Assembly (NCBI GenBank): GCA_003576845.1
Contig: QEVJ01000019.1
Coordinates: forward strand, 1 to 55,159
Direction of reading: 5' to 3'
DNA from: Planctomycetota bacterium
GTDB lineage: Bacteria; Planctomycetota; Planctomycetia; Pirellulales; PLA5
Length of the DNA: 55,159 bases
This document shows, piece after piece, positions 8,588 through 48,816 of the stretch. The notes below the pieces were generated by a model. The model did no database searches, was not told where the DNA came from, and was given only the letters and a program-made list of their open reading frames with translations. The position numbers were made by a program, and so were the translations under genes. Within the stretch, counting starts at the first letter, position 1. Each line of letters begins with the position of its first letter.

Positions 8588-8637
8588 CGCATTCTTCATT
8601 TTTCATTCTGCCTTTTGCATTCTCGCATTGGTACTCC
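8588..8637 (-). repeat. Single arm of the AAATGCAAAA word-repeat family at the ATPase C-terminus
   Basis: Read on the minus strand this is AATGCGAGAATGCAAAAGG, then CAGAATGAAAAATGAAGAATG. It is the same family as the inverted pairs at 16059-16161 and 34892-35005. The ABC ATPase frame runs into this arm and stops at its TGA (8605-8603). Confidence 0.75.
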
Positions 8638-16058: not shown

Positions 16059-16161
16059 GGAAATGCAAAAAGGCCAAATGAAGAACGCAAAATGAACCCG
16101 CGCGCGGCAACCGGGCCATCGTAGTTCATTCTGCATTCTTCATTTTGCCTTTTGCATTTCC
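16059..16161. repeat. Inverted pair of the AAATGCAAAAGGCAAAATGAA word family
   Basis: Left arm 16059-16097 (GGAAATGCAAAAAGGCC...AAAATGAAC) and right arm 16124-16161 (GTTCATTCTGCATTCTTCAT...GCATTTCC) are near-perfect reverse complements over about 38 nt with a 26-nt GC-rich loop. It fills the gap between the convergent stops at 16050 and 16167, so it could end transcription in both directions. Confidence 0.88.
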
Positions 16162-33911: not shown

Positions 33912-34639
33912 CCCACATCCTCGTCGTCGAAGACGAAGAACATCTCGCCGTCGGCATCAAGTTCAATCTCGAAGCCGAGGGCTACCGGGTCACCGCCGTG
34001 GGCGACGGCCCTTCCGCACTCGAATCGATCGAACGCAACGGCGTCGACCTCGTGATCCTCGACCTGATGTTGCCGGGCATGAGCGGATATGCCGTCTGCG
34101 AAAAGCTTCGCCAGGCCGGCAAGACGCTCCCCGTCTTGATGCTCACCGCCCGTACGCTGGCCGAAGACCGCAAACGTGGCTTCGACGTGGGCGCCGATCA
34201 GTACATGATGAAGCCCTTCGATCTCGACGAACTCATGAGCCGCGTGAAGAATCTGCTGGCGCGGCACGGTTCGGCGAATGGCAGCGCGACGCGCCCCGTG
34301 TCGAGCGGCGCGATCCGACGGTTCGGCCGCGCGGAAGTCAACTTCGACACCTTCGAGGTCACCGTCGCAGGAACTCCCGTCAAGCTCACGCAGCTCGAAA
34401 TGAAGTTGCTCCGCTACTTCATGGACCGCGAAGGCCGGGTCATCTCGCGCGACGAGTTGCTCGAAAACGTCTGGGACATGCCGGGCCATCTCTACACGCG
34501 CGCCCCAGACCAGTTCATTCGCCGGCTACGAAAGACGTTCGAGGAGAACCCAGCCCAACCGCGGCACTTTCTGACGATCCGCGACGCAGGATATCGGTTC
34601 GTCAGCGGCGGCGAAAAGAGGTTGGAGGTTGGAGGTTAG
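33908..34639 (+). CDS. OmpR/PhoB-family response regulator
   Basis: A 243-residue DNA-binding regulator. The receiver spans 1-118 (VVEDEE, acidic D9; phospho-acceptor D52 in VILDLMLPGMSG; MLTAR; conserved Lys in YMMKPFDLDEL). The winged helix spans about 135-235 (LTQLEMKLLRYFMDREGRVISRDELLENVW, FIRRLRKTFEENP..HFLTIRDAGYRFV). It is translationally coupled to the upstream kinase. The last residues KRLEVGG and the TAG stop are encoded by the GAGGTTGGAGGTT word repeat that begins at 34619, so the native end has been overwritten or extended. Confidence 0.94.
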   Translation: MTHILVVEDEEHLAVGIKFNLEAEGYRVTAVGDGPSALESIERNGVDLVILDLMLPGMSGYAVCEKLRQAGKTLPVLMLTARTLAEDRKRGFDVGADQYMMKPFDLDELMSRVKNLLARHGSANGSATRPVSSGAIRRFGRAEVNFDTFEVTVAGTPVKLTQLEMKLLRYFMDREGRVISRDELLENVWDMPGHLYTRAPDQFIRRLRKTFEENPAQPRHFLTIRDAGYRFVSGGEKRLEVGG

Positions 34640-34709
34640 AGGTTGGAATAGAATTGCAATGAAAACTCCTCGAATCGTCTCCAACCTCTAACCTCTAACC
34701 TCCAACCTC
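34619..34709. repeat. Inverted pair of GAGGTTGGAGGTTAGAGG words
   Basis: Left arm 34619-34648 and right arm 34680-34709 are reverse complements over 30 nt with one mismatch; the 31-nt loop is AT-rich. The stop codon of the response regulator (34637-34639) lies in the left arm. A related single arm is at 55029-55061. Confidence 0.9.
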
Positions 34710-34891: not shown

Positions 34892-35005
34892 GCAAAATGC
34901 AGAATGCAGCATGAAAAACGAAGAATGAGCGTCCGCCATCCGCGGACGCGCTGCGCGACGGTTCCTCCGCATTTTGCATTCTTCGTTTTGCCTTTCGCAT
35001 TTTGC
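34892..35005. repeat. Inverted pair of the AAATGC/GAATGC word family upstream of dnaX
   Basis: GCAAAATGCAGAATGCAGC...AACGAAGAATG (34892-34926) faces GCATTTTGCATTCTTCGTTT...GCATTTTGC (34969-35005). The loop contains a further perfect hairpin GTCCGC-CATCC-GCGGAC (34931-34947). It ends 6 nt before the dnaX ATG, replacing any Shine-Dalgarno. Same family as 16059-16161. Confidence 0.85.
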
Positions 35006-35011
35006 CATCTC

Positions 35012-36754
35012 ATGTCCGACGCACCCCCGACTTCGACCGTTCCCGAACCGGCCAACCCCGGCCAGTACGTCGTCATTGCCCGGCGATACCGCCCGCAATC
35101 GTTCGACGAGCTGATCGGCCAGGATCACGTTCGCCGGGCGATGGCCGGGGCAATCGAGTCCAACCGCATCGGTCACGCCTATCTCTTCACCGGCGCGCGC
35201 GGCGTCGGCAAAACCTCCTCCGCCCGCATTCTCGCCAAGTCGCTCAATTGCATCCACGGCCCGACCGCCACGCCCTGCAACGAGTGCGAAATCTGCCGCG
35301 ACATTTCCGCCGGCGCGGACGTCGACGTCCTCGAAATCGACGGCGCCAGCAACCGCGGAGTAGACGAGATCCGCCAGCTTCGCCAGAACGTCGCCGTCCG
35401 TCCGAGCCGGGCCCGCTTCAAGATTTACATCATCGACGAAGTCCACATGCTCACCCGCGAGGCGTTCAACGCCTTGCTCAAAACGCTCGAAGAACCGCCC
35501 GAGCACGTCAAATTCATTTTCTGCACGACGGAGCCGGAAAAGGTTCCCATCACGATCCACTCCCGCTGCCAGCGATTCGACTTCGCCGGTATTCCCACCG
35601 CCGCGATCGTCGACCGGCTCGCGTCGATCTGCGAGTCGGAAGGCATCAACGCCGAACGCTCGGCGCTGGAGATCATCGCCCGCCGCGCTGCCGGCTCGAT
35701 GCGCGACGGACAATCGCTCCTCGAACAAGTGCTCTCGTGCTGCGGAACGGAATTGACCGCCGAGCATTTGCATCGTCTGCTTGGCACCGCCTCGGGCAAG
35801 CGGTTCGAGCAGTTGGTCGCGTGCCTCGTCGATCGCGATGCGGCCGATTCGCTCGCCCAGCTCGACGGCGCGGTCGCCGAAGGCGCCGACGTCGGACAGT
35901 TGCTCGAGCAGTTGCTCGGCTACTTTCGCGACGTGATGGCCGCCGGCGTCGGTTGTTCGGCCGCGTCGTTCTTGCACGCCACAAGCGGCGACGAGCTGCG
36001 CGTCAAAGCGGCCGCGCAGCAACTGGGCTTGGAAACCGTGCTGGCGATCATGCAGATCGTCGACCAGACACTCGCGCGAATGCGGCAGAGCACGCATGGC
36101 CGGACGCTCGCCGAAGTGGCGATCGTGCGGATCTGCAATCTCGAAAACCTCGAAGACCTGGCCACGCTCGCCGCGGCCGTCCGCAGCGGCGCGGTCTCGG
36201 CCGCCCCGCCCGGTGGTCAGCGCTTGCCGCCGCCTCGCCCGACTGCCGCGCCGCTAACTTCGCCGAGCTACGAGCAAAAAAAAAACGTAGTTGAATCGAG
36301 CGGCAACGGTCAGGCCGCCACCCCCAGCGACGAGCCGTCCCCCGCACCCGCCGAGCCGGTCGAGCTCACCGCCGAAAACGTGAGCGCAATCTGGCAGCAG
36401 GCGCTCGACGGCATCACCGACATGGTCGCCGACCAGGCCGCGCTGGCCGACAGCGTATCCCTCGCCGCTCCCCGGCGGGTGGTCGTCCGATTCGCCTGGA
36501 AATACAATTCGTGCAAGTTGTCGTGCGAGCGGCCCGACAAAGCGGCGATCCTCCAGCGGCGACTGGCCGACGTCGTCGGCGCGCCGGTGCAACTCGAGTT
36601 TGCCGTCGACGAACCGACGAACGAGTTGGCCGCAAGTGCCCGCGCCGCACCCTCGCGGCCGCGAACGGCCGAACGAGCAAACCATCCCTTCGTCCGCCGC
36701 GCGATGGAACTGTTCGGCGCATCGAGCATCCGTGTCGACGAACCACCGTCGTAA
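35012..36754 (+). CDS. dnaX: DNA polymerase III subunit tau/gamma with an A10 slippage run
   Basis: A 580-residue AAA+ clamp-loader subunit. Domain I-II features are FDELIGQDHVRRAMAGAI, Walker A GARGVGKTSSARIL, the zinc Cys cluster C..C..C (NCIHGPTATPCNECEIC), DEVHMLT and the arginine-finger region SRCQRFDF. Domain III is about 240-370, followed by a Pro/Ala/Ser linker and a tau C-terminal domain. The linker contains ten consecutive A (36276-36285). Gaining one A gives stop TGA at 36292-36294 (product of 427 residues); losing one gives TAG at 36288-36290. This matches programmed gamma production in other dnaX genes. The ATG at 35012 was chosen because protein-like sequence starts there; no Shine-Dalgarno is visible. 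Confidence 0.95.
   Translation: MSDAPPTSTVPEPANPGQYVVIARRYRPQSFDELIGQDHVRRAMAGAIESNRIGHAYLFTGARGVGKTSSARILAKSLNCIHGPTATPCNECEICRDISAGADVDVLEIDGASNRGVDEIRQLRQNVAVRPSRARFKIYIIDEVHMLTREAFNALLKTLEEPPEHVKFIFCTTEPEKVPITIHSRCQRFDFAGIPTAAIVDRLASICESEGINAERSALEIIARRAAGSMRDGQSLLEQVLSCCGTELTAEHLHRLLGTASGKRFEQLVACLVDRDAADSLAQLDGAVAEGADVGQLLEQLLGYFRDVMAAGVGCSAASFLHATSGDELRVKAAAQQLGLETVLAIMQIVDQTLARMRQSTHGRTLAEVAIVRICNLENLEDLATLAAAVRSGAVSAAPPGGQRLPPPRPTAAPLTSPSYEQKKNVVESSGNGQAATPSDEPSPAPAEPVELTAENVSAIWQQALDGITDMVADQAALADSVSLAAPRRVVVRFAWKYNSCKLSCERPDKAAILQRRLADVVGAPVQLEFAVDEPTNELAASARAAPSRPRTAERANHPFVRRAMELFGASSIRVDEPPS
36276..36285 (+). promoter_or_regulatory. A10 slippage/frameshift site in dnaX
   Basis: The codons CAA AAA AAA AAC contain ten consecutive A in an otherwise GC-rich gene, between residues 422 and 425. 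Both alternative frames terminate within 3 codons (TAG at 36288, TGA at 36292). The site sits at the border between the clamp-loader domains and the tau-specific domains. Confidence 0.75.
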
Positions 36755-36861: not shown

Positions 36862-37224
36862 GTGTTCAAAGGTCTCGCCAACATCGCCTCGCTCGTCAAA
36901 CAAGCCCAGCAAATGGGCTCGAAGCTCCAAGGCATCAACGAGGAACTCAAAGCCAAGCGCGTCACCGGTTCGGCCGGCGGTGGGCTGGTCGAGGTCGAAG
37001 TGAACGGCCTGGGCGAAGTGCTCCGCGTCCGCATCGACCAAAAGCTCGTCGACCAGCAGGACCGCGAGATGATCGAAGACCTGCTCCCCGCCGCCACGAA
37101 TCAAGCGATCGCCAAGAGCCGCCAGCTCCACGCCGACGCAGTCAAGGCAATGACCAGCGGCATGGACATTCCCGGCCTCGGCGAAGCGCTCGAAAGCATC
37201 CAGCAAAACCCGCCGCCGCAATGA
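36862..37224 (+). CDS. ybaB: YbaB/EbfC nucleoid-associated protein
   Basis: A 120-residue DNA-binding protein that acts as a dimer on the nucleoid. Family features are MFKGLANIASLVKQAQQMGSKL at the N-terminus, RVTGSAGGGLVEVEVNGLGEVLRVRID in the middle and the helical DREMIEDLLPAATNQAIAKSRQL. The GTG start at 36862 has GGAG 9 nt upstream. It follows dnaX as in the conserved dnaX-ybaB-recR order, but recR is absent; an ABC exporter operon follows. The spacer before it carries CCACTGCCCAC-type words. Confidence 0.92.
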   Translation: MFKGLANIASLVKQAQQMGSKLQGINEELKAKRVTGSAGGGLVEVEVNGLGEVLRVRIDQKLVDQQDREMIEDLLPAATNQAIAKSRQLHADAVKAMTSGMDIPGLGEALESIQQNPPPQ

Positions 37225-48513: not shown

Positions 48514-48816
48514 GCGGGTTCGTTTTTTTTAGCGCAGAGAGGGCGCGGAGGATTCGCAGAGGGCGCAGTGCCGCCTTCTCGCCGCGGGCAAGTGGTGTTT
48601 TGAAAAACGGAGACGCGGAGGCACGGAGAAAGTGCAAAAGGCAAAATGAAAAATGCAGAATGACCGCGGTAGATCCGTTTCCAGCCCCACGTTGCCGGAT
48701 TTCCACGGTTTATTTCGTGATTTCGCACTTTCGCACTTTCGCGCTTTCGCGATTCGCAACGAGTCTTCCCGGGAAACGAAGATTCAGAGCGCTCGCAGTG
48801 CAGAGGAGAGTCGCCG
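48514..48816. repeat. Cluster of four short-word repeat families
   Basis: In order these are: AGCGCAGAGAGGGCGCGGAG and CGCAGAGGGCGCAG (about 48531-48570); GGAGACGCGGAGGCACGGAG (48609-48628); GTGCAAAAGGCAAAATGAA then AATGCAGAATG (48631-48661, one arm of the AAATGC family); and the TTTCGCACTTTCGC leader (48716-48760) homologous to 28994-29080. No gene is present. Confidence 0.8.

Follow-up and report, generated by a model that had tools for sequence, protein, structure and literature searches.

Results

The dnaX gene and its surroundings

The window, by which we mean the whole stretch of 55,159 nucleotides analysed here, carries a gene of 66% GC whose product is assigned by both NCBIfam and Pfam to DnaX, DNA polymerase III gamma/tau, with a TIGR02397 score of 448 bits against an equivalog cut-off of 250 (Table 1). 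Directly 3' of dnaX lies a gene of the YbaB/EbfC family, a gene order that is often seen. The intergenic DNA upstream contains an inverted pair of heptamer repeats, GAGGTTG/GAGGTTA, which give 293 overlapping hits genome-wide compared with 84 for a reversed control pattern. A second family of repeats with 7-nt periodicity, built of GCARAAT/GMARAAT units, occurs at four places in the window, and the copy that precedes dnaX makes up an inverted repeat together with positions 34970-35005.

Table 1. Features of dnaX and its neighbourhood, with positions in the window
Feature	Position	Strand	Basis
Heptamer repeats GAGGTTG/GAGGTTA, inverted pair	34618..34647 and 34680..34709		
GCARAAT/GMARAAT repeats	8590..8618, 16127..16155, 34892..34927, 48641..48662		
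dnaX, full-length tau, 580 aa	35012..36754	+	TIGR02397 dnaX_nterm 448 bits; NF004046 483.9 bits; Pfam DNA_pol3_gamma3, DNAX_ATPase_lid
Clamp-loader core, residues 24-391, domains I-III	35081..36184	+	AlphaFold2 high confidence; match to E. coli gamma 1jr3
Disordered linker, residues 401-443	36212..36340	+	pLDDT <50 at 413-443; conservation 0.20-0.25
A10 slippage run (putative), codons 422-425	36276..36285	+	A9/A10 at the same site in 95/114 class members
TAG, 425-426 aa product	36288..36290	+	Stop for run readings of A9 and A12; near stop conserved in frame
TGA, 426-427 aa product	36292..36294	+	Stop for run readings of A11 and A8, and for ribosomes shifted by -1; near stop conserved in frame
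Tau-specific C-terminal domain, residues 448-580	36353..36751	+	AlphaFold2 pLDDT 87.5; 4iqj_M; DnaX_C in relatives
YbaB/EbfC family gene	36862..37224		

Structural modelling divides the protein into a core, a linker and a tail. In a fold search with the AlphaFold2 model the core matches E. coli gamma (1jr3) with a Z score of 36.6 over 358 residues, and it would be common to tau and the predicted gamma. Protein conservation falls to its lowest in the linker (0.20-0.25 among 95 relatives), the extreme N-terminus excepted, and the residues encoded by the run, 422-425, fall in the middle of its low-confidence part. The tail was modelled alone for the fold search, as the full-model search covered the core only, and the E. 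coli tau domain (2aya/5fkv) was among its top matches, but weak. The best profile match of the tail is chain M of 4iqj, named DNA polymerase III gamma/tau (E 1e-6), and Pfam DnaX_C, which finds no match in the window's own DnaX at E 0.01, is matched by 10 of the 28 aligned relatives. The profile match, the DnaX_C domain of the relatives and the weak fold matches together indicate that the tail is the tau-specific polymerase-binding domain. A product truncated at the run is thus predicted to retain the clamp-loader ATPase core and to lack the polymerase-binding domain of tau.

The A10 run and its predicted products

The run stands in the codon context CAA AAA AAA AAC GTA GTT. Computed products show that a reading of A10 gives the protein of 580 residues, that A11 gives one of 427 residues ending in EQKKKRS before the TGA, that A9 gives one of 425 residues ending in EQKKT before the TAG, and that A8 and A12 give 426 residues each. 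A preliminary description of this DNA had placed an A10 run at positions 36276-36285 of dnaX, at the junction of the clamp-loader and tau-specific parts, with a product of 427 residues ending at TGA 36292 after one extra A and a stop at TAG 36288 after one A fewer. The coordinates are right on re-reading of the sequence, the computed lengths and stops agree, and the AlphaFold2 model and domain layout confirm the linker position. A sequencing error in the run length, which the same description had named as a possible refutation, is unlikely because A10 recurs at the corresponding position of a separately assembled genome from the same genus (79% protein identity), within the different flanks GAGC-A10-TAACCTAG and with immediate stops in both frames.

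Long homopolymers are few in the window's genome (7.05 Mb in 289 contigs), with 12 distinct A/T runs of at least nine nucleotides and four of at least ten, and an ORF check of the 11 other long runs found no clear case of a second coding slippage site. Since the protein reads QKKN at this place, however, synonymous-codon shuffling of the window's dnaX regenerates the run in 6% of shuffles, so this gene taken alone is not decisive and argues only weakly that the run is beyond chance.

Conservation of the run across the class

Conservation of the run in relatives, a check put forward in the preliminary description, extends through the class, where 95 of the 114 dnaX genes keep A9 or A10 at the site and 24 of 26 families bear the run. 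Within the window's order, for which 88 dnaX genes were surveyed, in most cases a single gene from each genus, 72 genes have the run (A9 in 44, A10 in 28), while A7 and A8 occur once each, 14 genes have six or fewer and none has A11. The other orders of the class have it in 23 of 26 genes. Examples are Aporhodopirellula aestuarii (L202) and Schlesneria (L205) with A10, Gemmata sp. IIL30 (L203) with A9, and a Pirellulales metagenome-assembled genome (L204) with A9 and a site sequence nearly that of the family f8 loci, a likeness that makes Pirellulales the probable order of the window. With a median of 12 overlapping A9 hits per genome on both strands, the chance of such a run in a stretch of 600 nt is about 0.05%, so that 95 of 114 is overwhelmingly beyond chance. 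Beyond the class the run is patchy, with single A9 runs in metagenome-assembled genomes of Verrucomicrobia (L212), Ignavibacteria (L225) and Bacteroidetes (L262).

A run of at least nine is absent from 19 of the 114 relatives, through repeated losses that fall mainly in families f17 (L037, L038, L040, L045 and L090, for example) and f7. None of these 19 has a convincing replacement homopolymer or an obvious substitute site. In these relatives, therefore, gamma would be either dispensable or made in another way. Two genomes, G030 and G043, each have two dnaX matches on different contigs, which may be paralogues or reflect mixed assemblies.

Among the 95 run-bearing genes the run is found in all three codon phases, and on the tree its phase must have changed at least 20 times and its length 23 times among them, besides 15 changes in whether the run is present. 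The varying phases and the poor conservation of the encoded linker indicate that selection acts on the nucleotide run itself. An amino-acid constraint as the cause of the run is rejected on the same two grounds.

Stops in both alternative frames

The distance from the run to the next stop was compared with that at control positions elsewhere in these genes and with that in synonymous shuffles. In the frame entered by an extra A, a stop lies within five codons in 80% of cases, against 13% at control positions and 27% in shuffles; in the frame entered by a missing A, the corresponding values are 66%, 15% and 27%. The distance is below expectation in 24 of 24 families for each frame (p = 6e-8 each). 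Where the extra-A frame has a near stop, the missing-A frame has one too in 64% of cases, versus 14%. The enrichment of near stops in one frame is independent of that in the other. The double stop had been taken in the preliminary description as a sign of a site tuned for slippage in either direction, and the class-wide run together with near stops enriched in both frames supports such tuning. The arrangement is indeed present and enriched, but it is not new, being the one known from Thermus (PMC5009743).

Relatives with split frames or other candidate shift sites

In four relatives, L335 from the window's order, L315 and L325 from one family of another class, and L279, dnaX is split between frames, the zero-frame ORF ending 7-10 codons after the start of an A10 run. 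One extra A restores the tau domain in these genes (E 2e-19 to 9e-14), and one A fewer does not restore it in any of the four. Gamma being their zero-frame product, a shift at the run, by slippage or by a -1 shift, must yield tau. Assembly error may lie behind single cases.

Three genes of family f27, from another class of the phylum (L277, L333 and L334), have a dnaX that is devoid of the A run and carries a conserved GGGAAAAGCCTGA, at which a -1 shift on G_GGA_AAA passes a TGA to give products of 449-486 residues ending in HxLVRRARELF; the tip of the window's tau, HPFVRRAMELF, is similar. We regard G_GGA_AAA as a candidate ribosomal -1 frameshift site in f27 dnaX. The frame-split dnaX of L332 (family f62) has A7 only, in GGA AAA AAA GGC TGA, with a tau-like C-terminus in an overlapping ORF in the -1 frame, and here a ribosomal shift seems likelier than slippage.

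Discussion

The most probable reading of these results, to which we give a probability of roughly three in four, is that the A10 run in the window's dnaX is a programmed transcriptional-slippage site, and that a shorter clamp-loader protein is probably produced beside tau in these bacteria through stutter of RNA polymerase on the run. RNA polymerase would realign on A10 and produce dnaX mRNAs with varying numbers of A; those with A10, or with three more or three fewer, would be translated into full-length tau of 580 residues, and those with other numbers would meet TGA or TAG a few codons on and encode a gamma-like protein of 425-427 residues. The sequences themselves show the run, its stops, the domain layout, the conservation through the class and the excess of stops in both frames; we infer that slippage is frequent enough to be useful, that it takes place in transcription and not on the ribosome, and that the gamma product is functional. 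Closure of both alternative frames would matter if the length of the run in RNA varied up and down. A purely -1 ribosomal shift needs a stop in one frame only, and the bidirectional stops, together with the variable phase of the run, therefore favour RNA polymerase. A variable direction of shift is also treated by Antonov et al. (PMC3711429) as the mark of transcriptional realignment.

The main rival to transcriptional slippage is a programmed -1 ribosomal frameshift of the E. coli kind, in which ribosomes would slip on A_AAA_AAA and stop at the TGA, giving the product of 427 residues only. The heptamer A_AAA_AAA does occur in frame within runs, so some -1 shifting is possible; the stop constraint is tighter in the extra-A frame (80% within five codons), and all the frame-split relatives need the extra-A direction, which a -1 shift also gives. 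Against this stand the stops of the opposite frame, which are strongly enriched too (66% vs 15%, in 24 of 24 families), and a run length set at 9-10 although 6-7 would suffice for ribosomes. Nor are the usual companions of such a site in evidence: in-frame A_AAA_AAG is found in 16 of the 95 run-bearing genes and is not in the window's CAA AAA AAA AAC, an upstream Shine-Dalgarno-like motif shows no enrichment across the 95 genes (8% vs 9% in the control), and no downstream hairpin is enriched among them, the folding being slightly weaker than in the control. The window's genome, moreover, encodes both tRNA-Lys(ttt) and tRNA-Lys(ctt), with anticodons UUU and CUU, one each for AAA and AAG, a combination that has been proposed to promote polymerase slippage in Thermus (PMC5009743). 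We therefore consider ribosomal frameshifting unlikely as the explanation of this site.

The remaining explanations are less probable again. The run might encode a useful lysine-rich motif of the linker, such as a site of protease cleavage or of contact, with its DNA form incidental and the stops serving to limit the damage of accidental slippage; the encoded residues are usually KK, and the 6% of synonymous shuffles that contain A10 fit such a view. Yet lysine elsewhere in these dnaX genes is written more often as AAG (969 codons) than as AAA (608) while A9/A10 stays unbroken, the run occupies three phases with varied residues, and damage limitation leaves the retention of the run unexplained, all of which makes a lysine motif quite improbable. 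A contingency locus, at which A9 and A11 variants of the DNA itself would turn tau off in part of the population, draws on the fact that a coding homopolymer of 9-10 is a typical hypermutable tract and that relatives show both lengths 9 and 10. Loss of tau, however, is expected to be lethal from what is established about the replicase, nearly all assemblies are tau-open and the frame-split ones retain a second frame that codes for tau; we hold such phase variation to be very improbable. A chance run with no function is conceivable in a single gene, as the window's gene alone would not exclude it, and 19 of the 114 relatives are without a run, but the class survey, with the run in 95 of 114 genes where about 0.05% is expected for each, contradicts it, and it is the least credible explanation of all.

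The architecture of the site is of the Thermus thermophilus type and not of the E. coli type. The dnaX of T. thermophilus (A9; Larsen et al. 2000, as described in PMC1088944, PMC5009743 and PMC3711429) likewise has an unbroken A9/A10 in one tau-encoding ORF and, in the accounts of PMC1088944 and PMC5009743, nearby stops in both other frames; a gamma-like product, predicted in the window, that lacks the C-terminus of tau and two lysine tRNAs are further points in common. The comparison with Thermus slippage drawn in the preliminary description thus holds for run, stops, domain layout and tRNA-Lys pair, as far as sequence can tell. The two differ in that Thermus belongs to another phylum and has its run seven-eighths through the gene against about three-quarters in the window, and in that the planctomycete run, a putative slippage site, is kept across a whole class. 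The comparison with E. coli frameshifting does not fit: the A-rich site at the boundary of core and tau, the functional outcome and the size of gamma (431 residues in E. coli, 427 predicted here) are alike, whereas the A_AAA_AAG, Shine-Dalgarno and stem-loop elements are missing here and stops are present in both frames. A two-ORF dnaX with A10, described by Antonov et al. (PMC3711429), has the same kind of run and resembles the frame-split L335, L315, L325 and L279; in the window, by contrast, tau lies in a single ORF and slippage would shorten the product instead of lengthening it.

We found no report of slippage in planctomycete dnaX in the open-access papers searched; the main text of Antonov et al. 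(PMC3711429) names no planctomycete for dnaX, though their supplementary list of species may include some. What is new here is the class-wide extent and the nucleotide-level tests, the type of slippage site being known. The importance of gamma has been debated for decades. According to a 2012 review, most bacteria besides enterobacteria and Thermus have no dnaX frameshift signature and may make no gamma (PMC3290774). That a whole class retains a putative slippage site closed in both frames implies that gamma is under strong selection in bacteria in which none would have been expected. A lineage-wide site that depends on the run also offers a clean test, as a synonymous break would remove only gamma, and the relatives constitute a large natural data set of recoding sites that arise, change direction and are lost. 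More tentatively, and at rather less than even odds, slippage-made gamma may be an ancestral, selected trait of Planctomycetia, in which orthologues have switched between tau by default and gamma by default through changes affecting the run or its immediate flanks, and elsewhere in the phylum some lineages have exchanged it for the ribosomal -1 site G_GGA_AAA. If so, the ratio of tau to gamma in these bacteria would be set by RNA polymerase itself.
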